Source of the DNA: Hexactinellida sp. DTS-2022 | Taxonomy: Eukaryota; Porifera; Hexactinellida | Direction: 5' to 3' | DNA length: 64,000 bases | NCBI GenBank assembly: GCA_028753945.1 | Contig: JAPNXP010000007.1 | Span: forward strand, 1,364,001-1,428,000 | In this document: in pieces, positions 9,809 through 50,586 of the stretch | Numbering within the stretch: position 1 is the first letter of the stretch | Layout of the letters: every line of letters starts with the position of its first letter | Notes under the pieces: model-generated | What the model was told of the DNA's origin: nothing | Database searches by the model: none | Seen by the model: the letters and a program-made list of their open reading frames with translations, nothing else | Program-made: the position numbers and the translations under genes

Positions 9809-10618
9809 CAGTGCTCGACAAAATGAAATTTTGATGGTAGCTAATTAAGCCACCACCTCACTTTTTCTGGTGACTAAAGAATAAACAACGGCCGATTTAA
9901 CAAACCACTGATGACTTAACAAAGTTCTAATGCCGTGAAACAACACTCATATTAATAACAAACTAGCGCGCTTCGCTTGCTAGGTCGCTTCGCGGCGGAA
10001 CACAACCACACACGAACCGCTTCGCGGTTGGTGTGTGGTTTATATACTCCTAATATTGATTATAAAGCGTAAATAGGCCTAAATAGTCAAATTTAACAAT
10101 GTGAAATTTTAGTGATTACGTCATCATGCGATAATGAGTAAGCATATTGGTGATCTGGTGTGACCAATGTGTCCGCATCATTAATGTACATGTTCTATTA
10201 AATTTTCAGATATTTATCTCTTAGAGGGCTCGAATTATGTGCGATTTAGTGAATTTTTAGGGTTCTCGAAATGTGACAATGACGTCATAACTTGTCGAGG
10301 TGTGAGAAATTTTGAATGGAAAACTCAACTTGTTGGCGGGTGCCAAAAGTTACCCATATATACCAAAAATCACATTTGGAAACCGTCCACTTTCTTCAAT
10401 CAACTCGGAACATAAAACAAATATATATATATATATAACCCACCCACCCAGGCTTGTGTTTTAATAGTATAGATAATGCAACGATAAATATAATCTACAC
10501 CACGTCAAATAATCCACAATTTATGGTAGATTAGTTAAGCCACCAAAGGCAGTATTTGGTGGCTTAAATAAGAATTTTGGTGGCTAACGCCACCAAACCA
10601 CCTAATTGTCGAGCACTG
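9809..10618. mobile_element. hAT-type MITE split by a Helitron
   Basis: The ends CAGTGCTCGACAA and TTGTCGAGCACTG are inverted repeats, and the 8-bp duplication CTCAGGCC is exact (9801-9808 and 10619-10626). The interior has GGTGGCTTAA motifs in both orientations. A Helitron at 9963-10473 accounts for most of the length; the MITE alone would be about 300 bp. Confidence 0.9.
9963..10473 (-). mobile_element. non-autonomous Helitron, family H1
   Basis: Read on the minus strand it begins TCTATACTATTAAAACAC after an A and ends GCGCGCTAG before a T. This is the A|TC...CTAG|T signature of Helitrons, with no target duplication. Near the 3' end are GC-rich hairpins, including AACCGCTTCGCGGTT, in an otherwise AT-rich element. 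It encodes no protein. Other H1 copies are at 21008-21413, 21416-21890, 31635-32272 and 50098-50586. Confidence 0.92.
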
Positions 10619-15143: not shown

Positions 15144-16125
15144 CTATAGTACCGTCAGAGAGATTTGACTTTGGTCTAAAGTAATACTTCCTAAACGTCT
15201 TTTCGGAAGACCAATCAGCTGCTTTAAGTATATCCTGTATTGAAGATCCCTTATACCAAGCATTTGAAGTTGCAGCAGCTCGGGTCGAGTGCGACTGGAA
15301 TGAGTGTATGCCTGTGGCCTTAAGTACATCGACTAACCAACGAGCAATTGTACATGGTCGAACTGGATGAAAAGGTTTGACGATGCTTAGGAAAAATTGA
15401 GAACAATTAGCAGGTCTACGATCTCTAGTTCTCTCTAGGTAACGTTTTATAAGTTAGGGAATGCAATATCTTGGGTCCTCATGCTCGGGAAAAGTGACTA
15501 ACTTCCCAGGGGCATCGGACTTACCGGATTCCGCTAACCAGAACGAAGCACTCTTGTGTGAAAACGTAAGGTAGTCCACATTGAAGCGGTGCAGATCAGA
15601 ACAGCGTCCACCCGAAGCTAGAGCAATATACATAGCTGTCTTCTTTGTAAGCCAATCTGTCCTTATACTATCATTATCTCCCAGTTCGTCTAGCCAGATT
15701 AGCACTGTATTAACTTCCCAAATAAATTTCATCTTAGGTAAAGGAGGTCGTTTGCGGTAAATTCCTCTTAATAGCTTAGCGACCATACGATGTTCTCCTA
15801 CTGGCCTACCATCTACACTAGGTAGCATTGATGAGATGGCTGAGCGAAGTACATTAATAGTACTATAGGATTTGTCGGTAACAAATTGTTCGGTTAGGAA
15901 ATTCACTACGTGTGAGGGAGAGGCTTGAAGTGGATTAACCTGTTGGATTTCACACCAGCTAGCGAATTTGCTCCAACCGGCATCGTATGATCTCTTCGTT
16001 GAGTCTGATGTTGCATCGATGATGAGAGAGGTAGCCTCGCTCGAAAAGCCTTCTGTAGAGCAGTGTCCCCTGATAACCTGAAGGCGGCTAGTGTTAAAGA
16101 TCCCTCGTGGATTAGAGGGTGACAA
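15144..16125 (-). pseudogene. DIRS tyrosine recombinase region (fossil)
   Basis: This region carries the tyrosine recombinase that takes the place of a DDE integrase in DIRS elements. The N-terminal SAM-like DNA-binding part is seen around KRSYDAGWSKFASWC, and the start of the catalytic domain at SGGRCSDLHRF, whose arginine fits the first catalytic residue. It overlaps the end of the RT region in another frame, which is usual for the family. It is treated as a decayed part of the element. Confidence 0.85.
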
Positions 16126-16344
16126 GCTCCTAGAGGAGATAGGAGAAGATCCTCCTCTAGTGGCAGAGGACTGGATGGTATATCAACATTTTCAGCAGTT
16201 TGGGATACCAAACTTGACCCCTCCAAACTGGCGCAATCAACATGATCGTGAGGCATTCCCTGTGGATCTTGTGGAGGACTGCCTCTATTAGACTGAACGG
16301 GGGAAAGGCATAACTGTTGTGTGTCCAATTCTGGATTAGTGCAT

Positions 16345-18041
16345 TTACTTGAGAGGCCTGCGGATCCGGTTTCCAACTGAAGATATTGGAAGTTGTGTAT
16401 TCGTTCGATCGGCGAACAGATCGACTGGGAATGGGCCATAAATTTTCGGAAGAGTTAGAAAAACTTGCCTCTTTAGCCTCCAGTTCGATGCATCTAGTGT
16501 TCTCGAGCAGCTGTCGGCTTCTACATTCTGTTTCCCTGGAAGATATTGGGCCTGAAGCCATATCTTGCGGTCCAGACTCCACGTCCATAATTTGTGAGAA
16601 GCCATGAGTAGAGGTATCGAGTGGGTTCCTCCCATCTTGTTTATGTAAGCTACTACAGTCCGGTTGTCCGAATAAATCAGGACATTGATCCTTGATAGAG
16701 ATGAAATCGTTTCTGATAGCGATAATATTGGCCAGAATGCCTGTAGTGCATATAGAACTGCGAGTAATTCCAAAATATTTATGTGTAGAATTGACTCTTC
16801 CGCTGTCCAGTCGCCACTCGTCGATACGCTGAGTGGCTCCTGGAGTACTGCACCCCAAGCCTGAAGTGAGGCATCGGTCGACAGGATAACCTGAGGATCC
16901 ATTGATAAGTGAATTGGGTGCTGAATCTGTGTTGAGATCAGATTCTTCCATGAGGTTACTATTTTTCGAGCCCGTTGGGACAACGACATTAAGGAATTGT
17001 ATTTCCTGGCGTGGATTCGGAGAGCCTGCTTGCATTCCACTTGTAATAACCTCATTCTGAGCGGAGCCGAAGGGATCACCTGTCGGGTGACTCGAGTAAC
17101 CCCAGAAAGGTGGACAGGGTTCTGATCGGAAAAAAATGAGTCTTCAGGATACCTGAAGCTAAGTTCTTCACCCGTGCCACTCTCTCCGATGTCAAACTTA
17201 TTAGACATGTGGGAGTTGTTGTTATAACAAACCCGAGGAATGTTAGGGACTGAGTGGGAACGAGACAGGACTCCCACCTCTCGAGGAGGTAAATTGTAGC
17301 ATCGAGGTGCAATTGCAGAGTAGTGCATGATTCCGCAGTTATTAGAATATCGTCGAGGTATACCAGCATGTGCAGACCCAGTTCCCCGCAGGAGAGTCAT
17401 TGGTACACGCATTACCTTGGTAAATATTCTGGGGGAAATCGACAAACCGAAAGGCATCCCCTGATACGTGTACACTTTCCCTTTCCAAGTGAATGCCAGG
17501 AACTTCTGAAAGGATTGGGAGACCGGAATTGATAGGAAGCGTCCTTTAAGTCCAGACGGACCATGTAGTAATTGGGCTGTAGAACTGTTTTGAGGCTCTT
17601 GATTGTTTCCATTTTGAAATGAATCGGAACAAGATAAGTGTTTAGTTCCCTCAGATCTAGAATCAAGCGCCACTTTTTGTCTTTCTTCGGTACCAGAAAG
17701 ACTGGACTCAAGAAAGGTAAGGTTTCTTGGTTGAGTTCCTGAATGGCTCCTTTCGAGATCAACTGAGTGATCTCTGAGGTGATGCCATTCTCCTGAACGG
17801 TGTTGAAGTGAGATACTCTCACTTTCGGGAAGTATTGCGGGTCGGGTTGGGTTATAAAGGGTAGAGTAAGTCCGGAGATTATTTGGAGTATCCAAGTGTT
17901 TGAGGTAATCATAGGCGTCGTAAATGCAAAGGTCAATCCTTCGGGCCGCCGGAAATTCCGGGTAAACTCCGGGTAAACTCGGAGTATAGTGTTAGTAGCA
18001 TAGGGACAATCCCTTCGGCCCGCCCGGACATTTCCGGGCAC
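16345..18041 (-). pseudogene. DIRS reverse transcriptase / RNase H region (fossil)
   Basis: The reverse transcriptase is recognised by the FLVPKKDKKWRLILDLR fingers motif and the YLDDILI active-site motif. RNase H is recognised by STDASLQAWGAVL, YSDNRTVVAYIN and a late aspartate in NVEADSCSR. Order and strand fit DIRS. A short MITE insertion lies at its upstream end. I saw no clear methyltransferase domain, though some DIRS relatives have one. Confidence 0.9.
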
Positions 18042-21413: not shown

Positions 21414-21415
21414 AA

Positions 21416-21890
21416 CTAGCGCGCTTCGCTTGCTAGGCCGCTTCGCGGCAGAACACAACCACACACACCAACCGCTTCGCGGTTGGTGTGTGGTTTATAT
21501 ACTTCTAACATTGATTATAAAGCGTAAATAGGCCTAAATAGGCCTAAATAGTCAAATTTAATTAACAATGTGAAATTTTAATGATTACGTCATCATGCGA
21601 TAATGAGTAAGCATATTTGTGATCTGGTGTGACCAACGTGTCCGCATCATTAATGTCCATGTTCTATCAAATTTTAAGATCTTTATCTCTTAAAGGGCGC
21701 GAATTATGTGCGATTAAGTGAATTTTCAGGGTTCTCGAAATGTGACAATGACGTCATAACTTGTCGAGGTGTGAGAAATTTTGAGTGGAAACCTCAACTT
21801 GTTGGCGGGTGCCAAAAGTTACCCCTATATGCCACAAATCACATTTGAAAACCGTCCACTTTCTTCAATCAACTCGGAACATACAAACAA
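21416..21890 (-). mobile_element. Helitron family H1, 5' end missing
   Basis: On the minus strand it ends GCGCGCTAG|T with the H1 hairpins (AACCGCTTCGCGGTT) intact, and its body runs toward 21890, where the expected 5' TCTATACTATT end is absent. It faces the 21008-21413 copy tail to tail, so the pair forms an imperfect 0.9-kb palindrome. Confidence 0.85.
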
Positions 21891-22110: not shown

Positions 22111-22535
22111 TATTATTAAATCTCGATTGTTCTGTGTGTGTTTGTTTGTTTGTCCGGATTGTATTAAAGTGATGGGTGGATAGAAACCGCATTAATATAT
22201 GAGATATAAACTAACTGTCAAATGTTAGAATTCGGTAAACAAATGTTATAATAGGTAAACAAGTATGCAGAACACGAATTTCGCATTTATAAATTTAGAA
22301 TATGAATATTTGTTGTTGTTTACACAAAAAGGTAAACAAATTAATTAAAATTCAAAATCAACCTAGAAGTTAGCTTTCAACGGGTATTATAGGTAAACAA
22401 GTATGCTGAACACGAATTTCGCATTTATAAATTTAGAATATGAATATTTGTTGTTGTTGTTGACACAAATAAGTAAACAAATTAATTAAAATTCAAAATC
22501 AACCTAGAAGTTAGCTTTCAACGGGTATTATTCGC
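22111..22535 (+). mobile_element. Helitron family H2, 5' region
   Basis: TATTATTAAATCTCGATTG followed by TTTGTTTGTCC and two tandem copies of a block with AACACGAATTTCGC and CCTAGAAGTTAGCTTTCAAC match the 5' part of the Helitron at 29041-29630. It runs directly into the helicase remnant at 22536, so the H2 family is probably the one that encodes this helicase. The first bases (TCTA) are degraded. Confidence 0.7.
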
Positions 22536-24217
22536 TCGAAGAGTCAAATTGCCCTTGGGTTAGCTAGCAGTGGCATAGCCGCTCTCCTCCTCGCAGGGGG
22601 GCGGACTGTCCACTCTAGGTTGAAAGTTCCCATTGATATCAATGAGTTATCTGTATGTAACATTTCGAAACAGAGTGCTTTGGCACAGCTAATTAAGCGT
22701 ACAAAACCTTTGGTATTGGATGAAGCGTGCATGTCAAATAAGCATGTAGCTGAGTGTGTTGATCGCAGATTGAGGGATATTTGTCCCTTTGGTGGAAAAG
22801 TAATGGTATTTGGAGGCGACTTCTGTCAGAAACCCCCTGTAGTTAAGCATGGGTCGAGAGCCGAAGTGGTCTCTTCCTGTCTGAACAGGTCATATCTCTG
22901 GCGTTATGTTAAAGTAATGAAGCTAACTATAAATATGCGCCTCCAAACATTATTGTCACAAGATGCCCTCGAGGTCAGTAAATTTTCCAACTTTTTATTA
23001 AGAGTGGGAGAAGGCACTGAACCTGAGGATGACAATCAAATGATTCACATAGATAACAAATTTGTTGTACCAGGTGATTCCATTACAGACTTGGTTACTT
23101 CAGTCTATGGTGATATATATGTAAATTATGCTGATCGTGATTATGTAAGTCAAAAAATTATTCTGTGTCCTAAAAATGATACAGCTGATTTAATAAACGA
23201 TTACGTAATTCATTAGCTTCCTGGTGATGGTATAACTCTGTTGAGCGCAAATTCTGTTGAAGGTTCTGCTGCAGTATATTTTCCAAATGAGTTTTTAAAT
23301 TCCATCACTCCTAACGGTATGCCTCCTCATCGGCTATTCTTTAAATTGTTTGCGACTGTAATTCTATTGCGTAACCTTGATCCCGATGAGGGTCTTTGTA
23401 ATGGTACTCGGTTGATTATTAGAGCATTCTCAAACCGGATAATTGACGCGGAGATCGCAACTGGTACAAACAAGCATAAGCGAGTGTTTATACCACGAAT
23501 TATATTGACTTCTTCTGAGTCTGAACTTCCATTTATTCTCAGAAGGAGGCAGTTTCCAATCCGCTTAGCCTATTGTATCACAATTAACAAAGGGCAAGGT
23601 CAGAGTTTGGATACCGTTGGTCTATATCAGAGTGGACCATGGGTCGATGGGTCATGGGTCATGGGTCAGATGGGTCACCTAAATCGATGGGTCAGATGGG
23701 TCATGGGTCACGGCTCCGTGACCCATGACCCATGACCCATTTGTAATTTCAATGTCATCTTCAGTTAAAATACGTTTCACTCATCATCATCATTATTATT
23801 ATAACATTGATGTGCATTGATATACTAAACATATTCGACATTGCAACAAGTAGGTTTGTTGAGGTATTTAAACCGTTATTCTGTTATTCTGTTAATGTTA
23901 CATTATAGTATTTAGATATTTAAAATTGTTTGATGGGTCAATGGGTCACTCGATGGGTCATGGGTCAATGGGTCAATGGGTCAATGGGTCATGGGTCAGA
24001 AATGGGATGGGTCAGATGGGTCATGGGTCACCAATGTTGACCCATGGTCCACTCTGGTCTATATCTGCCATCCCCTGAAGCCATTTTTAGTCATGGCCAA
24101 CTCTATGTTGCATTGAGTAGAGTTAAAAATCCATTGGGACTAAAAATAATGGTAGGTGGAACTGACAAATCAAAATCTGGGGAAGTTTGGATTAGAAATG
24201 TAGTCTATAGGGAAGTT
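22536..24217 (+). pseudogene. Helitron PIF1-type helicase remnant, split by a MITE
   Basis: This is the C-terminal helicase half of a Helitron Rep/helicase protein. Visible features: GLASSGIAALLLAGGRT just after the missing Walker A region; LVLDEACMSNK (motif II); VFGGDFCQKPPV (motif III region); INMRL; INKGQGQSLDTVGLY (motif V); GQLYVALSRV (motif VI). Defects: the Walker A segment and Rep domain are absent, one in-frame TAG lies at 23214, and a 429-bp MITE sits at 23628-24056. The frame resumes correctly if the MITE and one 8-bp duplication are discounted. Helitron similarity ends near 24217, where hAT sequence begins. Confidence 0.88.
23628..24056. mobile_element. hAT-type MITE with GGGTCAT repeat body, in the helicase
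   Basis: The inverted ends CAGAGTGGACCATGGGTC are flanked by an exact 8-bp duplication, GTCTATAT (23620-23627 and 24057-24064). The outer parts of the body are tandem ATGGGTC repeats continuous with the terminal repeat; the centre is unique AT-rich DNA. Young, since the duplication and ends are intact. Confidence 0.93.
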
Positions 24218-28992: not shown

Positions 28993-29913
28993 GCTTTAGG
29001 GTATGAAATATCTCCCTATTTTAGTATTCCTATTATAAAATCTATATTATTAAATCTCGATTGTTGTTTGTTTGTGTTTGTTTGTCCGAATTGTATTAAA
29101 GTGATGGGGGAATAGAAAACGCAATTAATAATGGGATATAAACTAACTTTCAAATGTTATAATTGGTAAACAAATGTTATAATAGGTAAACAAGTTGGCT
29201 GATTTCGGATTTCGCGTTTATAAATTTGTAATATGAATATTTGTTATTGTTGTTTACACAAAAATGGTAAACAAATTAATTAAAATTCAAAATCAACCTA
29301 GAAGTTAGCTTTCAACGGGTATTATATGTAAACAAGTATGCTGAACACGAATTTCGCGTTTATAAATTTCTAATATGAAAATTTGTTGTTGTTTACACAA
29401 AATAGGTAAACAAATTAATGAAAATTCAAAATCGACCTAGAAGTTAGCTTCTGACGGGTTTTATTGGTAAACAAGTTAAAACTATGGAAAATGGTAGAAA
29501 TGATTGTATATAACGTCCCTTTCTACCATTTTCCATGGCAGAAAGGGTGAGGAGTAAGGCCGCACAGCGGCCGTTAACTTGAGGTGCGTAGCACCGATCC
29601 GTCGCAAAGCGACTGAGACCGAAGGGCTCATTATTAGAAATTAGGAAGTAACTGAAATCTATGATATTTGAATTTTTTTTCGTTTTACCAAAAATTGTTA
29701 CCGTCATCATTAAATGGCGCCTAAATAGCTTAACCACAAATCTGAGATTCTCAAAAGTGGTTCTAATGGACTCGCAATGGTTGATTACCCCATATACAAC
29801 CCAAATAACAACAATAAGAGGCATGGTTTATCCTAGAATCAAATTCAAAACTGGCCTTCTTGTTTAAAGGCCAAGTTGGGAACATCACAGCCGTATATAT
29901 ATAGTAAGCCATG
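28993..29913. mobile_element. P-superfamily-type MITE, left part lost, with Helitron inside
   Basis: The right arm (GCGCCTAAATAGCTTAACC to TATAGTAAGCCATG) and the centre (TATGAAATATCTCCCTATT) match the 3955-4740 family. The left arm is missing at the hAT border 28992. A Helitron occupies 29041-29630. The right end sits inside the Helitron Rep gene, immediately after KYSKPD. Confidence 0.75.
29041..29630 (+). mobile_element. non-autonomous Helitron, family H2
   Basis: It starts TCTATATTATTAAATC directly after an A. The break in the host MITE (compare the TAAAATTATTAG centre of 3955-4740) shows a clean insertion between A and T with no target duplication. The 5' half repeats GGTAAACAAATTAAT and CCTAGAAGTTAGCTT blocks. 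The 3' end has hairpins (GTCGCAAAGCGAC, GGCCGCACAGCGGCC) and finishes CTCA, which differs from the canonical CTAG. Confidence 0.8.
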
Positions 29914-31414: not shown

Positions 31415-31634
31415 AAAAAGAATCGAATCTAATAAGTCAATCTAAAGAAAAAAAAGTAGGCACAAATGATTGGTTAGATGAATTTATTTTAACTCAATCA
31501 AGTTTCAGCCTCAGAAAATCTTTCTATTATGCACAGTCTATTTATACTAATTGAATGAAGTATAGCTAATCCATACTAGCAAACCCTCGAATGTAATTAA
31601 TTGGGTAAAATATTATGTCACATTTAAATGTGTA

Positions 31635-32272
31635 CTAGCGCGCTACGCTTGCTAGGTCGATTCGCGGCAGAACACAACCACACACCAACCGCTTCGCGGT
31701 TGGTGTGTGGTTTATATACTCCTAATATTGATTATAAAGCGTAAATAGGTCAAAAGTCAAATTTAACAATGTGAAATTTTAATGATTACGTCATCATGTG
31801 ATAATGAGGTAGCATAGTGGCGGTCTGGTGTGACCAACGTGTCCGCATCATTAATGCACATGTTCTATTAAATTTTCAGATTTTTATCTCTTAGAGGGCG
31901 CGAATTATGCGCGATTAAGTTAATTTTCAGGGTTCTCGAAATGTGACAATGACGTCATAACTTGTCGAGGTGTGAGAAATTATGAGTGGAAGCCTCAACT
32001 TGTTGGCGGGTGCCAAAAGTTACCCCTATATGCCCAAAATCCCATTTGGAAACCGTCCACTTTCTTCAATCAACTCGTAACATACAAACAAAGGTACAAC
32101 TATAGTATTGTACCGGAATATTATGTGCATATTGAAAGACTCGTCTTTTTTAGTGTGTATTATGGTTCATTAAGAAAGAATCGTCTTTAGAAAATGTGTA
32201 TCCGGTACAATACTATAGTTGTACCCAAACAAATATATACACATCCCCAGGCTTGTGTTTTAATAGTAAAGA
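31635..32272 (-). mobile_element. non-autonomous Helitron family H1 with MITE inside
   Basis: The 5' end TCTTTACTATTAAAACAC is at 32272 after A, and the 3' end CGCGCTAG|T at 31635. The same AACCGCTTCGCGGTT hairpin and TGACGTCATAACTTGTCG body as the other H1 copies are present. A 133-bp MITE at 32093-32225 interrupts it. Confidence 0.9.
32093..32225. mobile_element. 133-bp MITE with GGTACAACTATAG ends
   Basis: The 25-bp inverted ends begin GGTACAACTATAGTATTGTA and are flanked by an exact 8-bp duplication, CAAACAAA (32085-32092 and 32226-32233). The middle repeats AGACTCGTCTTT and AAGAATCGTCTTT. The superfamily is unclear: 8-bp duplications fit hAT or P, but the GGTAC end is not typical of either as I know them. 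Confidence 0.88.
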
Positions 32273-39730: not shown

Positions 39731-42700
39731 CTGCGTATCCTGCTATATAAACGAGACATTCCATTTGAGAAACCTCTATTTCAGGGACTGAAATTTCATT
39801 CAATGTGGTTAGATAAAGTTCTATATCGTGTTGCTCCTCATTACAACTATCAAAATCGTCAGCAAATTTATGAAGGTATTCTTTAAGAGAAATACTGTCT
39901 TCACAAGAGATAGCACCGTGTTTTAGAGCGAACACTTTTAGAATGTTTGAAAGTTGGAGTCTGCGTTCGCTTTCCAAAATTTGGTTAAATGAAATCTGGT
40001 AGTGAGACCCTGACATCTGTCTATATAAACCAAAGTGGTGCTCCAGCGCATCATTTTGAATTCTTGCAGTTAGAAGGTACTGGTATCCGCAGTTCTCGGT
40101 AAGTTGTTTGACCAGCAGTGGTAACGCCTCGCATGTGTGTCTGAAACTGGTAAAGGTTTGTGGTGTTAACTTTCCATATAAAGATGGCAGATTATTCCAA
40201 ATATCCAACCAAGAGACGACGTCGTTTAAAAATTGTAAACGAAAATCTCCTGGGTAAATTGGAGCTGAATATTCATCCTTAAAACGTATATCTTTTCCGA
40301 CCCAGTTGACATTGAATAGTTTCCACACCTGATTGATTAATTCAAGGAATTCTACTGTTTGATTCGTGTGTATGATGTCTTTTTTCCATTTTCCACGATA
40401 ATAACCCGGCATATGTTGTCTCATGGAAAATTTTCAAAGCAAAACTAACATTTTGTCGTTCTAACCTTGAGGGCCAACAGGCTTTCGCTGTTAATCTTGG
40501 TGCTCGCTTCAAGACATTACATTTATCAGAATTGAATAAATTACGGATATCTTGAAAGGGTGCATAACAGGATAAAGAGATTTAGAGGTAAAATGAGTGG
40601 TCGAAATGTTGGTTCTAGAAATGGAGACGTAAAAACTTTTGTTTACGTTACTGATATTTTGTTGTACACATAATTTACATTCAGCAAATTTCGGAAAAAT
40701 AAATGTATTGTCCAAATTTTTTAGATTTAACCAATTATTCCTAATGGACTTAATGATATGAACAAAATCAAAAAACAAAATTGAACTTCTTTGTGGATTG
40801 CATGGGTGCTGTACCTTTGGTTCCAGTCTCGAATTAATTGAAAAGAATTTGTATAAACGAACATTGGGTGGATAATTATCAGTACACACAGCTTCAACAA
40901 ACACTCCACAAGCTTCGATGTCACAAATAGTTGATTTAACAATTGGATATAATGATTCTGCGGATGAAGAACCCAAAGGTATTAATCGCACAATGGTGGA
41001 AAACTTGGCCGATAAACTAGAAACCATCATAGAAAAAACTGTAGTATGTGGATCATCCGGATTATGAATCGACCCAATTACCCTTCCTCCCTTATAGGAT
41101 GCATCACTACGAATGTGAACTTCATCCATTTGAAGAATCACATGGCGCTCTAAATCATTAAACGTGGTAGCAATTTCTTGAAGAATTTTAGTATACTCAC
41201 TCTCTAGGCCAATACTATTTTTGATCTTCAACAAATTACCTTCGTGTGGAAGTATTATACAGTTAGAGCTTTGGATAAGCCGATAACAAGCTGGCGAAAT
41301 TCCGTGAACTTTTAGACAAAAGACCTGAGTGAGAATATTATAACGACGAGCATGTTTATCAACAATTAAGTATTTCAGCTGATCGATCAAAAAATTAAGA
41401 CGAATTAGCATAGAATCATTCTCGGAATCGAAATCAAATGTGGAATGGGTAGGATCTAGTGTATCAATAGCACTAGAAAGATTATGAATGGCATTCTCGA
41501 CATGTTTTTTCAAAGGGGTCGCTGTGGAAATTGAGCAATCTTTTTGACTCATTTCAAATATTTCAACTTCATGAATAATATTTTCTAACAATCTGATATC
41601 GTTGAACGAATTACAAGATAGTTTGATATTCTATTATTTTCTTTATAAAAAGCCTTACAATCTAATTTTTCATCAACAATTATTGAACGTTCGATCGTAG
41701 AAATTTCATTATGATAGTGAATCTTAAGAGAATAATTGTAGAATTGGGTCGATGAAGAAACCAACCGTTAGGTAGTTCAATTATATGTAACTTAGAAATA
41801 ATACAATTAAGAGTAGAAAGAATAAACTTAGATTCAGTTTCTTTGATTTCTGCGCGGCTCTTCTGGTAGGCTTCCTGTACCCTCTTCTCCTCCTTAACAT
41901 CTAAAGATAGTCTTTGACATCTATCAGCAGCATCTGTCAGATAGCTAGGACAGTTTGGAAAGATGCTAGGGACTGCACACTTCTTCAGAGCCACTTTCTT
42001 CCTGATCGTCTCAATCATCTCCATTCCATTGAAGTATTGAATGGTCCTCTCTATGTCTTCTTCATGGAAATGGTGTATGCAGACCTTCAAAACAAAAGAC
42101 ACAGAATACAATATAAAAGTAAACATATTATAACAAAGTACGTACCTTCAATCGTTTATTCATCTCGTAGTCTTCTCTCTGCCTAGGTATTGCTCGGAAC
42201 CACTTCTCACGAGTTTCAACATCAGTGGGGAAAGAGAAAACAGGTACATATTCATCTTTGTCAGAATAGTTTGACTTACAACCAGGTACGAGGCGAGTCA
42301 TGTTGAAATTTGAATACGCAAAGTGAAAATTATAAGTTTAGCAAGTGACAATGCAATTAAAATCATTATTGAATATCGTAAAAATTTTGAGTGTAAAAAT
42401 TATGGGTGGTTATTATGTGGTTAGTGAAATTCGTACTCTCACTACTCTGACGTTTATTGGGCAGAATGTAGAAATTAGTCAGCTACTCAAGTGTCTATAA
42501 CTTCCATAATCATTCAGTACTCTTATTTCTTGAACGTGAATATGATCTAAACGAATTTTAATCGTTCTGTAGGGATGAATTCAAACAATTGTTACCGCTA
42601 GATTAATATAGTGAATATCCCTGAAAATCAAGTTTATATTCTCGCAGTTATTCCAAAAATAAGTTCTAAGGGGCATAAAGTAGGTGAATTCACCATAAAT

Positions 42701-44048: not shown

Positions 44049-44083
44049 AATTAATAGTTTATTAATAATATATATTATATATA
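43669..44083. other. no gene; (AT)n microsatellite
   Basis: AT-rich DNA between P1 copy B and the Ginger-type element. An (AT)n run of about 35 bases lies at 44010-44045. The target site of the Ginger-type element is in this TA-rich stretch, so its duplication (TATA) is not diagnostic on its own. Confidence 0.5.
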
Positions 44084-44886
44084 TGTTGTAGGCGAAATTG
44101 AGTTTCAGTCCAAATTGAGTCTCAATTTCGCCTAGTCCAAATTGAGACTCATTTTGGACTAGTCCAAATTGAGTCTCATTTTCGTCTAGGCGAAATTGAG
44201 TCATACTTATAGAAAATGTTTAAATAAATATTATGGGTTATTAAAAATTAATTATTCCCCAGGTCGAATCCAGTTATTTCTTCACTTCTAAATGTGTATA
44301 CTGGTAAAACGAGTATGCTGAATACGAATTTGACACTCACAAATTTCTAATACAAATATTTATTGTTGTTATTGATAATATAGGCAAACAAATTTGTAAA
44401 ATATTAGGATTTACATAGATATTAGACGGTTATTTTAAGTTATTTCATATGCTAAATACGAATTTAGAATTATCTACTTGCAACTAAGGTCTGTTTGTTG
44501 TTAAAGTTGGGGAATTAATGACTAAGAATAAGATTGAGATTTTAAATTATAAGTAAGTAAGCAAACAAGTATCATATAGTTATGTATATAGAATAATATT
44601 GAATACTTTACAAAATGAATACGAGTCCTTTTGTAAGATAATTATATTGCAGTGTAAACTGTAAATTATGCATGATAAATTGATAATGAATTAAGTGGAA
44701 TAGTGAAGTATTCCCTAGCAAACGCGAACGAGATTATAGGCACGTAATAAATATTTATCCTAATCTACTCGCGAATTCAAACCATTTCACTCAAGACACC
44801 AGTTTAATCTTCAATACATATCATTATCAATACATTCACTACATAAACAGAATATAATTAAACGGACACATTCTTTACTGATAAGC

Positions 44887-45175
44887 TGGTACTTGTTAGT
44901 TGTATTAATAGTTGGCTGGCTTGTTAATTGTGTTAATAGTTGGCTGGCTTGTTAGTTGTATTAATAGTTGGCTGGCTTGTTAGTTGTGTTAATAGTTGGC
45001 TGGCTTGTTAGTTGTATTAATAGTTGGCTGGCTTGTTAGTTGTGTTAATAGTTGGCTGGCTTGTTAGTTGTATTAATAGTTGGCTAGCTTGTTAGTTGTA
45101 TTAATAGTTGGCTGGCTTGTTAGTTGTATTAATAGTTGGCTGGCTTGTTAGTTGTATTAATAGTTGGCTGGGTTG
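44887..45175. repeat. 28-bp minisatellite inside the Ginger-type element
   Basis: About ten head-to-tail units of TTGTTAGTTG-TATTAATAGT-TGGCTGGC, differing mostly at one position (TTGTATT or TTGTGTT, alternating in part). It lies just upstream of the plus-strand integrase gene and has no counterpart on the right arm. Confidence 0.95.
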
Positions 45176-45292
45176 ATGATTGTTTTGTAAATTTGGTTTT
45201 TAAAAAAACCTGTGCAGTTATTGGTTTGAGGCAAGGTGAGGCGATGGTCGAGGTTTTGAGGTAATTAAGAATGTTAACAGGATCCCAATTGG

Positions 45293-47272
45293 ATGAGGAG
45301 TAGGCTACGTTATTGCGTAATGCAGATAGATGATATAAAGGTACTATACTACAGGGAACAAGATGTCCGAGGTATACCACGACCCCGTTTACGCGTAGTA
45401 CCCAAGGAAGACCTATGGGACACACTGGTGCTCGCACATACGGAGCTGTCTCATGGGGGACGCGATAGGATGCAAGCCTACTTCCTAGAGCATATGTACC
45501 ACATCCCTCGTGAGGTTACAGTCCTCTTTCTACGCCTGTGCCCTATCTGTCAGTCAAGCAAAGGGAGAAAGTCCACACAGAAAATAATTCACAAGCCGAT
45601 CATACCTGCAGGGGTTGGCGTACGTGGACAGGCTGATCTGGTCGACTTGCAGTTAAGTCCTGATAACGGGTACAAGTTCATCCTCAATTACCAAGACTGC
45701 TTCAGCAAGTTCGTCGTCCTGAGACCACTCAAATCCAAGACAGCAGCGGAGGTGTCACAGTGCTTGGTGCGTATCTTCTGTGAGCATGGCCCACCTCATA
45801 TCCTGCACACAGATAACGGCACTGAGTTCGCGAATAAGACACTGATCGATCTTCTACACAAGCTGTGGTCAAGCACACGTATCGTACACGGCAGGCCTCG
45901 TCACCCACAGGATCAGGGGAGCGTGGAGCGTGCTAATGGCGACTTCAAGAAGCTACTCTACGCCCGGCTCAAGGATGAGAAGAAAGCCCAGAACGAGTGG
46001 GTGAGTGTCTTACATTATGTTCAATACTCTAAGAATATTGCACATCACCGTGGTATTAATGCCACTCCCTATTCTGTGCATTTTGGACGAACCCCGCCCG
46101 ATCTCAGTGTGGACATGTCACTACCCAGGGAAGTGGTCCAGCCACTCGAGACAGAGGACCAACTGGAACAAGCCCTCGATAGCAGACAAGTGATTGAGTA
46201 TGCCTCTCAGGACTCTGCTACGCCCACAGCTCTACCTTCACCCAGTCTCATCCCACTGTCACATCTATCCTTGCAGGCGTCACCTAGTGGAGCGGATATG
46301 CTAGGTGCTACTGCGCCGCCACCTGGGTCCAGCTTCTCGCTGCCTACTTGCTCCTATGACCCAGATGCTAACGATTGGCCCTCTGATACTTTTCTCTTAG
46401 ACTCACAGCAAGCTGGAAGTAGCCAAGATAACGATTCACCAACTGGGTCTCCCCTTCTTAATCCGCCCTCGTGCTTAGATGTGGACTCTTGCGAGGATTC
46501 ATACGACATGAGTGTGCGCCCACTGATTGGATGTCAGACTACTCCCTTCTTCGACCTCTCTCCGATAGTTCCTGCACCCTCGGTACAGACGCCACCTACC
46601 TGCGTAGTATACCCGCTTGATCCAGTCCCTTCCTGCGGTATATGCCACATTACTGACGACAATGAAACTACAGCCTGTAGTCATTGCCGGGCTGAATTTT
46701 ATAGCTGGCATCTTACGTGTATAGCCTCTGTGGCTGCCTATGCGGACGCAGGTGACCAGTACTTCTGTGAATCGGACCAGTTCTGCAAGAGTGCTCTGGA
46801 TACCGCACGCAGACGCCGCAATAGCTGGCTAGCACTGAAGAAACAGGGAGGTAGCATGATCGAGTCAAGTAGGAAACGGTTCAAGCCTCTAGAGCTCGGC
46901 GACAACGTCCGGATACCTATCCCTAGTGTTGACAGAGCCCCTATTGGCCCTACCAGCCTGGTTGGCACTGTGACCGACATATACTCAGAGGGAGGCGCAT
47001 TCCAAGTAGGCACTAAGCATGGTACGATCAAGACTGCTTTCACTCGCTCAGATTTGACCCCATGTGGTACAAGTCAACTCCTCCTGCCTACTGATGTCCC
47101 AGACCAGGAGCTATCCGTCAGAACGGCTGCCAGGTTGGAGGCAGGCGGACCTAGTATCATATCTTGCCACTGCAAGAAGACGTGCCTCTCCAAACGCTGC
47201 ATGTGCTACAAGAAGCAGGTCAAGTGCAACTCTAAATGTCACAGTAGCACTACGTGCAACAATAAACATTAA
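45293..47272 (+). CDS. Ginger/KRBA2-SCAND3-type DDE integrase, plus arm
   Basis: An intact 659-codon gene for an integrase-type transposase. An H2C2 zinc finger (H49, H54, C83, C86) is followed by the DDE core: GQADLVDLQ (D118), LHTDNGTEF (D174) and DQGSVERANGDFKK (E212), then INATPYSVHFGR. A long proline/serine-rich linker leads to a PHD/RING-like cysteine cluster (SCGICHI...CSHC...HLTC, about 448-478) and a C-terminal cysteine-rich CXC-like motif (CHCKKTCLSKRCMCY, about 628-642). The core and the tail are what I know from KRBA2/SCAND3-like proteins and Ginger-type transposons. The start at 45293 matches an internal Met in the other arm, whose frame extends 41 codons further upstream. Confidence 0.9.
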   Translation: MRSRLRYCVMQIDDIKVLYYREQDVRGIPRPRLRVVPKEDLWDTLVLAHTELSHGGRDRMQAYFLEHMYHIPREVTVLFLRLCPICQSSKGRKSTQKIIHKPIIPAGVGVRGQADLVDLQLSPDNGYKFILNYQDCFSKFVVLRPLKSKTAAEVSQCLVRIFCEHGPPHILHTDNGTEFANKTLIDLLHKLWSSTRIVHGRPRHPQDQGSVERANGDFKKLLYARLKDEKKAQNEWVSVLHYVQYSKNIAHHRGINATPYSVHFGRTPPDLSVDMSLPREVVQPLETEDQLEQALDSRQVIEYASQDSATPTALPSPSLIPLSHLSLQASPSGADMLGATAPPPGSSFSLPTCSYDPDANDWPSDTFLLDSQQAGSSQDNDSPTGSPLLNPPSCLDVDSCEDSYDMSVRPLIGCQTTPFFDLSPIVPAPSVQTPPTCVVYPLDPVPSCGICHITDDNETTACSHCRAEFYSWHLTCIASVAAYADAGDQYFCESDQFCKSALDTARRRRNSWLALKKQGGSMIESSRKRFKPLELGDNVRIPIPSVDRAPIGPTSLVGTVTDIYSEGGAFQVGTKHGTIKTAFTRSDLTPCGTSQLLLPTDVPDQELSVRTAARLEAGGPSIISCHCKKTCLSKRCMCYKKQVKCNSKCHSSTTCNNKH

Positions 47273-47334
47273 TAACTACAGTAATATACGTATGCCGGTA
47301 GAAATACTGAGCCTACGTATATTACCTGTAGCTA
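47273..47334. repeat. centre of the Ginger palindrome
   Basis: GTAATATACGTA and its complement flank a 21-base loop between the two stop codons. This segment and the last 18 codons of both genes differ between arms at about eight sites in 65 bases, while the next 1.9 kb of each arm looks identical. Confidence 0.85.
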
Positions 47335-49437
47335 TTAGTGTTTATTGTTACATGTAGTGCTACTGTGACACTTGGAGTTACACTTGACCTGCTTCTTGTA
47401 GCACATGCAGCGTTTGGAGAGGCACGTCTTCTTGCAGTGGCAAGATATGATACTAGGTCCGCCTGCCTCCAACCTGGCAGCCGTTCTGACGGATAGCTCC
47501 TGGTCTGGGACATCAGTAGGCAGGAGGAGTTGACTTGTACCACATGGGGTCAAATCTGAGCGAGTGAAAGCAGTCTTGATCGTACCATGCTTAGTGCCTA
47601 CTTGGAATGCGCCTCCCTCTGAGTATATGTCGGTCACAGTGCCAACCAGGCTGGTAGGGCCAATAGGGGCTCTGTCAACACTAGGGATAGGTATCCGGAC
47701 GTTGTCGCCGAGCTCTAGAGGCTTGAACCGTTTCCTACTTGACTCGATCATGCTACCTCCCTGTTTCTTCAGTGCTAGCCAGCTATTGCGGCGTCTGCGT
47801 GCGGTATCCAGAGCACTCTTGCAGAACTGGTCCGATTCACAGAAGTACTGGTCACCTGCGTCCGCATAGGCAGCCACAGAGGCTATACACGTAAGATGCC
47901 AGCTATAAAATTCAGCCCGGCAATGACTACAGGCTGTAGTTTCATTGTCGTCAGTAATGTGGCATATACCGCAGGAAGGGACTGGATCAAGCGGGTATAC
48001 TACGCAGGTAGGTGGCGTCTGTACCGAGGGTGCAGGAACTATCGGAGAGAGGTCGAAGAAGGGAGTAGTCTGACATCCAATCAGTGGGCGCACACTCATG
48101 TCGTATGAATCCTCGCAAGAGTCCACATCTAAGCACGAGGGCGGATTAAGAAGGGGAGACCCAGTTGGTGAATCGTTATCTTGGCTACTTCCAGCTTGCT
48201 GTGAGTCTAAGAGAAAAGTATCAGAGGGCCAATCGTTAGCATCTGGGTCATAGGAGCAAGTAGGCAGCGAGAAGCTGGACCCAGGTGGCGGCGCAGTAGC
48301 ACCTAGCATATCCGCTCCACTAGGTGACGCCTGCAAGGATAGATGTGACAGTGGGATGAGACTGGGTGAAGGTAGAGCTGTGGGCGTAGCAGAGTCCTGA
48401 GAGGCATACTCAATCACTTGTCTGCTATCGAGGGCTTGTTCCAGTTGGTCCTCTGTCTCGAGTGGCTGGACCACTTCCCTGGGTAGTGACATGTCCACAC
48501 TGAGATCGGGCGGGGTTCGTCCAAAATGCACAGAATAGGGAGTGGCATTAATACCACGGTGATGTGCAATATTCTTAGAGTATTGAACATAATGTAAGAC
48601 ACTCACCCACTCGTTCTGGGCTTTCTTCTCATCCTTGAGCCGGGCGTAGAGTAGCTTCTTGAAGTCGCCATTAGCACGCTCCACGCTCCCCTGATCCTGT
48701 GGGTGACGAGGCCTGCCGTGTACGATACGTGTGCTTGACCACAGCTTGTGTAGAAGATCGATCAGTGTCTTATTCGCGAACTCAGTGCCGTTATCTGTGT
48801 GCAGGATATGAGGTGGGCCATGCTCACAGAAGATACGCACCAAGCACTGTGACACCTCCGCTGCTGTCTTGGATTTGAGTGGTCTCAGGACGACGAACTT
48901 GCTGAAGCAGTCTTGGTAATTGAGGATGAACTTGTACCCGTTATCAGGACTTAACTGCAAGTCGACCAGATCAGCCTGTCCACGTACGCCAACCCCTGCA
49001 GGTATGATCGGCTTGTGAATTATTTTCTGTGTGGACTTTCTCCCTTTGCTTGACTGACAGATAGGGCACAGGCGTAGAAAGAGGACTGTAACCTCACGAG
49101 GGATGTGGTACATATGCTCTAGGAAGTAGGCTTGCATCCTATCGCGTCCCCCATGAGACAGCTCCGTATGTGCGAGCACCAGTGTGTCCCATAGGTCTTC
49201 CTTGGGTACTACGCGTAAACGGGGTCGTGGTATACCTCGGACATCTTGTTCCCTGTAGTATAGTACCTTTATATCATCTATCTGCATTACGCAATAACGT
49301 AGTCTCTTCCTCATCCAATTGCGGTCGCTGGTAACATTCTTATTTGCCTCAAAACACCCGATCACCTCCTCAACCTCACCTCTCCCCAATAACTGCTTGC
49401 CAATTGGAATCTTTTCCAACTCGGAATGGAATATCAA
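47335..49437 (-). CDS. Ginger/KRBA2-SCAND3-type DDE integrase, minus arm
   Basis: An intact 700-codon gene, the inverted twin of 45293-47272. From its residue 45 onward the protein is the same as the other arm, with the same H2C2, DDE, PHD-like and CXC-like regions. It has 41 extra N-terminal residues (LEKIPIGKQLLGRGEVEEV region). The two arms differ upstream of the common region, including Arg-Lys here versus Arg-Ser there beside the common Met. This longer version is probably closer to the full-length protein. Convergent orientation with its twin suggests overlapping transcripts, an inference. Confidence 0.9.
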   Translation of the reverse strand: MIFHSELEKIPIGKQLLGRGEVEEVIGCFEANKNVTSDRNWMRKRLRYCVMQIDDIKVLYYREQDVRGIPRPRLRVVPKEDLWDTLVLAHTELSHGGRDRMQAYFLEHMYHIPREVTVLFLRLCPICQSSKGRKSTQKIIHKPIIPAGVGVRGQADLVDLQLSPDNGYKFILNYQDCFSKFVVLRPLKSKTAAEVSQCLVRIFCEHGPPHILHTDNGTEFANKTLIDLLHKLWSSTRIVHGRPRHPQDQGSVERANGDFKKLLYARLKDEKKAQNEWVSVLHYVQYSKNIAHHRGINATPYSVHFGRTPPDLSVDMSLPREVVQPLETEDQLEQALDSRQVIEYASQDSATPTALPSPSLIPLSHLSLQASPSGADMLGATAPPPGSSFSLPTCSYDPDANDWPSDTFLLDSQQAGSSQDNDSPTGSPLLNPPSCLDVDSCEDSYDMSVRPLIGCQTTPFFDLSPIVPAPSVQTPPTCVVYPLDPVPSCGICHITDDNETTACSHCRAEFYSWHLTCIASVAAYADAGDQYFCESDQFCKSALDTARRRRNSWLALKKQGGSMIESSRKRFKPLELGDNVRIPIPSVDRAPIGPTSLVGTVTDIYSEGGAFQVGTKHGTIKTAFTRSDLTPCGTSQLLLPTDVPDQELSVRTAARLEAGGPSIISCHCKKTCLSKRCMCYKKQVKCNSKCHSSTTCNNKH

Positions 49438-49960
49438 AGCCAGATCGAAACAAGAATTCCATGAAGAATCAGATTAAATAATTCGCAATTAATACGATAT
49501 GCCTATAAGAAACTCCATGGAGGTCTAAATTTCGAAATAGAAACGTGAAGCATGTTATTCAATAAGCTGTTAAATACCAGCCAACATACTTAGAATGATA
49601 TAGTAGTTACAAGCTTAGTTAATTAATGACCAAAAATTGTGTTCATAATAGAGAGACTTCATAATAAGCAAACTCATTAAATACAAGTGCAAGTTATACA
49701 ACCCCTATGTAAGTTGACAAATTGGGATCATAGGGTTTGTTCACAATCAATAAATCTTCATTAACTGACGAAATCTTTTTCACAATAAGCAGTACTGTAT
49801 GTTACAAGCTAGCATACAATCGGAATTCACTAGCCTTAACTGCAAAAGGCATGTCCATTATAATTTCAAGCGTCAAATATACGTTATTGTAGCTATGAAC
49901 GGAAGGAATCTCAACATTTTCAAACTTTTTATACTGACCCATAATATTTATTTAAACATT
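49438..49960. other. right non-coding part of the Ginger-type element
   Basis: AT-rich, no gene seen. It contains the presumed promoter side of the minus-strand integrase. It is not an inverted copy of 44236-45290 except for the last part, where ATTTATTTAAACATTTTC and ATAAGTATGACTCAAT mirror 44180-44235. Confidence 0.55.
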
Positions 49961-50097
49961 TTCTATAAGTATGACTCAATCTCGCCTAGACGAAAATGAG
50001 ACTCAATTTGGACTAGTCCAAAATGAGTCTCAATTTGGACTAGTCCAAAATGAGACTCAATCTCGCCTGGTACTCAATTTCGCCTACAACATATATA

Positions 50098-50586
50098 CTA
50101 GCGAGCTTCGCTTGCTAGGTCGCTTCGCGGCAGAACACAACCACGCACCAAACGCTTCGCGGTTGATGTGTGGTTTATATACTCCTAATATTGATTATAA
50201 AGCGTAAATAGGCGTAAATAGGCCTAAATAGTAAATTTAGCAATGTGAAATTTAGTGATGACGTCATCATGCGACAATGAGCTAGCTTATTGGCAATCTG
50301 GTGTGACCAACGTGCCGCATCATTAATGTGCATATTCTATTAAATTTTCAGATTTTTATCTCTTAAGGGCGCGAATTTTGTGCGATTAAGTGACTTTTCT
50401 GGGTTCTCGAAATGTGACATTGACGTCATAACTTGTCGAGGTGTGAGAAATTTTTTAAGTGGAAACCTCAACTTGTTGGCGGGTGCCAAAAGTTACCCCT
50501 ATATGCCAAAAATCACATTTGGAAACCGTCCACTTTCTTCAATTAACTCGGAACACACACCCAGCCTTGTGTTTTAATAGTATAGA
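50098..50586 (-). mobile_element. non-autonomous Helitron, family H1
   Basis: The 5' end A|TCTATACTATTAAAACAC is at 50586 and the 3' end AGCTCGCTAG|T at 50098. It has the H1 body and an altered hairpin (AACGCTTCGCGGTT). It lies 6 bp from the right end of the Ginger-type element. Non-coding. Confidence 0.9.

Follow-up and report, generated by a model that had tools for sequence, protein, structure and literature searches.

How does a DNA transposon come to carry its transposase gene twice, the two copies facing each other, with arms that are identical over most of their length and abruptly different on either side of the identical part? The question is raised by a 6,008-bp element at positions 44084-50091 of a 64,000-nucleotide stretch of the genome of Hexactinellida sp. 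DTS-2022 (Porifera), taken from contig JAPNXP010000007.1 of assembly GCA_028753945.1 (positions 1,364,001 to 1,428,000, forward strand) and referred to below as the window. The element is a single transposon copy, bounded on each side by a terminal repeat and one copy of the target duplication. It holds two convergent (tail-to-tail) open reading frames (ORFs) for integrase-type (DDE) transposases, one of 659 amino acids on the left (45293-47272, plus strand; Pfam rve, E 6.1e-10) and one of 700 amino acids on the right (47335-49437, minus strand; Pfam rve, E 6.5e-10). Our preferred reading, to which we give a probability of roughly 0.55, is that the gene was inversely duplicated inside a Ginger2 element, that the two copies diverged under protein constraint, and that they were then homogenised by gene conversion from arm to arm.

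Identity and divergence of the palindrome arms

The arms form a palindrome of about 4.2 kb. By direct comparison, the left-arm tract (45305-47226, plus strand) is the reverse complement of the right-arm tract (47381-49302, minus strand) at 1,922 of 1,922 bp. Toward the centre, the inner shoulders (47227-47275, plus strand, and 47332-47380, minus strand) differ by 7 substitutions in 49 bp. On the far side of the tract, the outer shoulders (45214-45304, plus strand, and 49303-49396, minus strand) show 17 substitutions over 91 bp, along with three indels of 1 bp each, and beyond them the mirror homology ends. These comparisons bear out much of the original prediction made from this DNA, which had placed two facing integrase genes in one element bounded by TGTTG (the termini are TGTTG at 44084 and CAACA at 50091), had estimated about 1.9 kb of nucleotide identity with limits now corrected by one or two bases, and had described the arms as diverging abruptly on both sides. 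Aligned at the nucleotide level, the arms differ in the shoulders and not evenly along their length. The further description of the element as palindromic holds for the mirrored arms but not continuously out to the ends, since the spacers between arms and terminal repeats fail to align.

Pooled over the shoulders, differences occur at 24 of 140 positions; at that rate, the probability of finding none in 1,922 bp is about 10 to the power of -157 (log10 P ~ -157). Judged by this contrast in the sequence, the exact middle tract must be younger than the shoulders, and the divergence accumulated since homogenisation is below about 0.16% (95% bound from 0/1,922) if the assembly is right. An identity tract flanked by diverged sequence is the pattern of an arm-converting palindrome. 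We infer that conversion produced it here, and exchange between the two arms would be the simplest such cause.

Across the 659-codon overlap of the two ORFs, eight codons differ. Six of them lie in codons 645-659, and all six are synonymous (6/6), as had been predicted; the chance that six changes in 45 bases would all fall at third positions is 0.0006, a figure uncorrected for the choice of a stretch that begins at the first difference. At the outer end, codon 3 carries a replacement (S/K) and a second codon differs synonymously. The pattern in the 15 codons near the centre suggests that the two genes once diverged while the protein was constrained. A copy that has lost its mobility escapes such constraint. 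Hence either a lineage with both genes stayed mobile, or each arm has its source in a separate lineage and the two were later joined.

Each frame is open from a common internal ATG, at 45293 in the left gene and 49314 in the right. To this extent the genes are intact, as had been claimed, but in neither does another ATG precede the common one. The right frame reaches its 700 amino acids from a TTG, its first in-frame ATG being that at 49314, and no ATG lies between the upstream stop at 49476 and that position. In the left arm, the stretch upstream of the ORF that matches the right coding part is broken by three 1-bp indels and by stops. A spliced first exon could provide a start. The transposase genes (45293-47269 and 47338-49437) also have a GC content at third codon positions of 0.53-0.54, the next highest value among the other ORFs compared being 0.45; GC content outside the element in the window is 34-37%. 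GC-biased conversion and recent arrival are possible causes of the raised values.

Domains of the transposase

A phmmer search pairs the right ORF, over its residues 60-307, with prototype foamy virus (PFV) integrase (E 2.2e-15). In this alignment D156, D215, and E253 line up with acidic residues of the PFV enzyme that we take to be catalytic. H90, H95, C124, and C127 are present as candidates for the H2C2 zinc finger of the Ginger2/TDD group; H95, C124, and C127 pair with His or Cys residues of PFV integrase, and H90, the first zinc-finger His, is one column off. The Pfam model Integrase_H2C2 gives E 0.0035 and 17.8 bits, under its cut-off of 25.5. The C-terminal cysteine-rich stretch is CXC-like only (Pfam TCR, E 4.3e-4, under its cut-off). 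A PHD finger was considered for this protein because a C-x2-C...H-x2-C pattern is visible, but it was supported by neither the Pfam scan nor a PDB sequence search and was rejected. The AlphaFold2 single-sequence model of the transposase was too poor to be used (mean predicted local distance difference test score 34.9). The transposase may resemble the vertebrate gene KRBA2 and its relatives.

Assignment to the Ginger2/TDD group

The ends, repeat length, target duplication, and target support the assignment of the element to the Ginger2/TDD group of cut-and-paste DNA transposons, which narrows the Ginger type proposed in the original prediction. As described by Bao, Kapitonov and Jurka (2010, PMC2836005), Ginger2 elements end in TGTNR, carry terminal inverted repeats (TIRs) of about 50-180 bp, make 4-bp target duplications, and favour RTATAY as their target. 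The element resembles them in its TGTTG...CAACA termini, in TIRs of about 155 bp, in a 4-bp TATA duplication in the context A-TATA-T, and in the DDE integrase core found in both ORFs (Pfam rve). It also resembles them in lacking GPY/F and YPYY motifs, for which simple regular expressions gave no match in the 700-amino-acid ORF. Ginger1 is characterised by a CCGG or CCGT target, the GPY/F motif, and an OTU or Ulp1 domain; here the target is TATA, GPY/F is absent, and neither OTU nor Ulp1 is listed by Pfam at E up to 1.

The duplication occupies 44080-44083, at the end of a TA-rich run, and 50092-50095, which equals it; the flanking sequence reads TATATATA to the left of the element and TATATACT to the right. 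Because the left flank is TA-rich, the length of the duplication is ambiguous. The left TIR (44084-44238, plus strand) was delimited by alignment to the right end and by detection of tandem units, and the right TIR (49937-50091, minus strand) by alignment to the left end. Both contain 27-bp tandem units. Aligned end to end, the TIRs have 9 mismatches, distributed from the outside inward as 20 identical bp, a block in which 8 of 28 positions differ, and a block in which 1 of 107 differs, followed by a gap and fading homology. The window has 14 matches resembling the ends or the tandem units, all of them inside the two TIRs. The same search, at its sensitivity, found no inner element ends and, with as many as 4 mismatches allowed, no further copies of the ends in the window. 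Nesting of two complete elements was therefore rejected as an explanation.

The two convergent transposase genes in a palindrome set the element apart from the Ginger2/TDD transposons of Bao et al. 2010 (PMC2836005). No such arrangement is described in the parts of that source consulted, and the words "palindrom" and "convergent" are absent from its main text. Its Table 2 lists Ginger2 elements of 6,081, 6,110, and 6,676 bp, their layout not stated, and four others of 2,751-2,885 bp, their gene number not stated. The three long ones are the records ABEP02002130.1, CT027673, and ABRM01019362.1. Their doubled length is suggestive, but introns or other content would account for it too. TDD-4 and TDD-5 are about 3.8 kb long and make 5-bp target duplications (PMC2836005). 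Sesarmid nimaviruses, reported from crabs, carry a Ginger2-like DDE transposase with a 46-bp TIR and insert into (AT/TA)n (PMC10871703). The element described here has a similar transposase and likewise adjoins a TA run. The nimaviral elements differ in that they reside in viral genomes, 265 and 285 kb in size, and no duplicated gene is described in the section consulted.

Origin of the palindrome

The centre between the genes bears on how the duplication may have begun. The stop codons are separated by 62 bp, and the arms, read directly from the sequence, mirror each other to within a centre of about 20 bp. The 78 bases at 47265-47342, across the gap, are computed to form a hairpin (-19.3 kcal/mol for DNA; z score -7.38; 0 of 200 shuffles as good), and some hairpin is expected because this stretch is the centre of a palindrome. 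Such near-symmetry, with its centre inside a strong hairpin, is what fold-back priming would predict and favours fold-back copying, a process known from yeast breaks (PMC7467729). An AATAAA that may serve as a poly(A) signal lies in the last codons of the left gene (47261-47266, plus strand) and of the right gene (47341-47346, minus strand). The centre may act as a shared two-way transcription terminator.

Under the preferred history, fold-back copying at a short inverted repeat behind the stop codon would have started the duplication. The two genes would then have diverged with selection on the protein still acting on both, the lineage having kept transposing, and recently gene conversion would have copied one arm onto the other. 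Copying would have stopped near codon 14 of the right ORF, its product then being connected to the pre-existing 3' spacer; alternatively, the spacers would have been replaced. In such an element, the transposase would bind the 27-bp subterminal repeats and use RTATAY as its target, duplicating 4 bp (TATA) on insertion, and transcripts of the two genes would terminate at the poly(A) signals that face each other on either side of the 62-bp gap.

Several observations weigh against this history. Outside the arms lie the left spacer (44255-45213), which includes a repeat-like stretch (44290-44471) and a 28-bp minisatellite (44892-45175), and the right spacer (49440-49920 as tested). Homology between 44255-45200 and 49440-49920 did not exceed that of shuffled sequences (28 of 200 shuffles reached the score). 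Two parts of the left spacer compared singly with the right gave 76 of 200 and 54 of 200, and the wrong-strand control gave 140 of 200. Non-homologous spacers are unexpected if a whole half-element was copied by folding back, and they imply that copying ended early or that the spacers were later replaced. Further, one of the two codon differences at the outer end is a replacement, the upstream coding stretch of the left arm has decayed, and a third copy at another site could have served as the template for converting both arms. The element is known from a single copy, and the viral and prokaryote collections yielded no confirmed relative. Constraint followed by gene conversion, as originally proposed, gives the best fit to the pattern of differences, but the constraint is visible in only 15 codons.

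A possible but rather unlikely origin is the fusion of two related, differing single-gene Ginger2 elements that were joined in opposite orientation near their 3' ends, both inner termini being lost at the joining and the core being homogenised later by conversion. The size of the arms, about 3 kb each, is near the 2,751-2,885 bp of the four shorter Ginger2 elements (Bao 2010, PMC2836005), and the unrelated spacers, together with the diverged 28-bp block in the terminal repeats, are consistent with two sources. Separate element lineages would also keep their coding ends constrained. However, such a fusion requires breakage of both partners at nearly the same place past the stop codon to give a near-symmetrical centre, and the search of the window did not recover inner ends.

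An effect of assembly is improbable. In this case the element would be palindromic, with the identity of its core arising from the collapse or polishing of two slightly differing arms, and one consensus used twice would likewise yield 0 differences in 1,922 bp. The terminal repeats and target duplication, however, indicate one real insertion. A simple fold-back read artefact was rejected, since it should remain identical outward from the centre, yet the arms differ at 7 of the 49 bp that lie between the tract and the centre. Still less probable is a lone accident, a non-mobile copy rearranged after insertion and now decaying, which would account for the broken upstream coding stretch of the left arm and for the minisatellite and repeat-like sequence of the left spacer but not for two ORFs open over a 659-codon overlap with 3' differences that are all synonymous, where a dead copy should have gained stops and replacements.

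DNA transposon families usually die through decay of the transposase gene. The element may tentatively be seen as a member of a lineage of two-gene palindromic Ginger2 transposons that propagates itself and in which each gene would serve as a template for conversion repair of the other and so slow that decay; we consider such a lineage speculative and, on balance, doubtful. An element with a doubled, palindromic gene that shows signs of selection on both copies and of recent conversion between its arms would be a small, testable model of palindrome repair. That process, for which sex chromosomes are the best-known example, would thereby be linked to the survival of a mobile element. The predicted cost of convergent genes is double-stranded RNA, which would be measurable.

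Relatives and comparable systems

To look for relatives, the transposase protein was compared with viral and prokaryote collections, which would not be expected to contain many. In viral_contigs, 2 stretches matched a pattern and 0 were confirmed, and in genome_contigs the counts were 13 and 0. The core domain alone matched a pattern in 6 stretches of viral_contigs, with 0 confirmed, and a DNA pattern around the catalytic-glutamate motif had 0 matches in viral_contigs and 0 in genome_contigs. Among 50,697 phage records, 5 match weakly, with E from 1e-4 to 4e-3 and 12-19% of the query covered, and are read as distant integrases. Among the open-licence papers listed, which included no Repbase reports, no two-gene palindromic Ginger element was recognised in titles and opening abstract lines or in the passages and sections consulted.

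Partial parallels are found in other systems. In Galileo, a Foldback-like transposon, inverted repeats are thought to grow by the copying of inner sequence during repair (PMC3573991). Growth of inverted repeats inside the transposon (TIR1-F1-F1-TIR2), tandem repeats in the TIR, and proposed recombination between arms are shared with the element described here, whereas Galileo has a P-superfamily transposase and its added repeat comes from the F1/F2 regions beside the gene rather than from the gene itself (PMC3573991). Gene conversion likewise keeps the arms of human Y palindrome P6 alike, in tracts of about 2 kb (mean of minimum lengths 2,068 bp), but P6 is a chromosomal palindrome and not a mobile element (PMC3723533). 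Bacterial composite transposons and KolobokP resemble the sponge element in being one mobile unit with two copies of a module (PMC9587614). They differ in that composite transposons have whole insertion sequence elements at their limits, unlike the present element, in which no inner ends were found, and in that KolobokP has long direct terminal repeats bearing short TIRs of their own (PMC9587614).

Repeats and other mobile elements in the window

The repeat-like stretch of the left spacer (44290-44471) is 67-80% like tandem repeats, of 138-139-bp period, at 22241-22483 and 29172-29416. The right flank (50097-50300) is the start of a dispersed repeat that begins ACTAGCG and recurs at 9962-10157, 21415-21626, and 31633-31827 with 85-88% similarity; the transposon sits a few bases from the edge of this repeat. 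Farther away, ORFs at 15454-17895 (minus strand) weakly match reverse transcriptase, RNase H, and phage-integrase N-terminal domains, all under curated cut-offs, in an order resembling that of a DIRS-type retrotransposon. A PIF1-type helicase ORF at 22620-23216 (plus strand; E 8e-41) is perhaps Helitron-derived. The ORF at 40509-41591 (minus strand) encodes a TNP-like RNase H domain (E 1.4e-12) and probably belongs to another DNA transposon.

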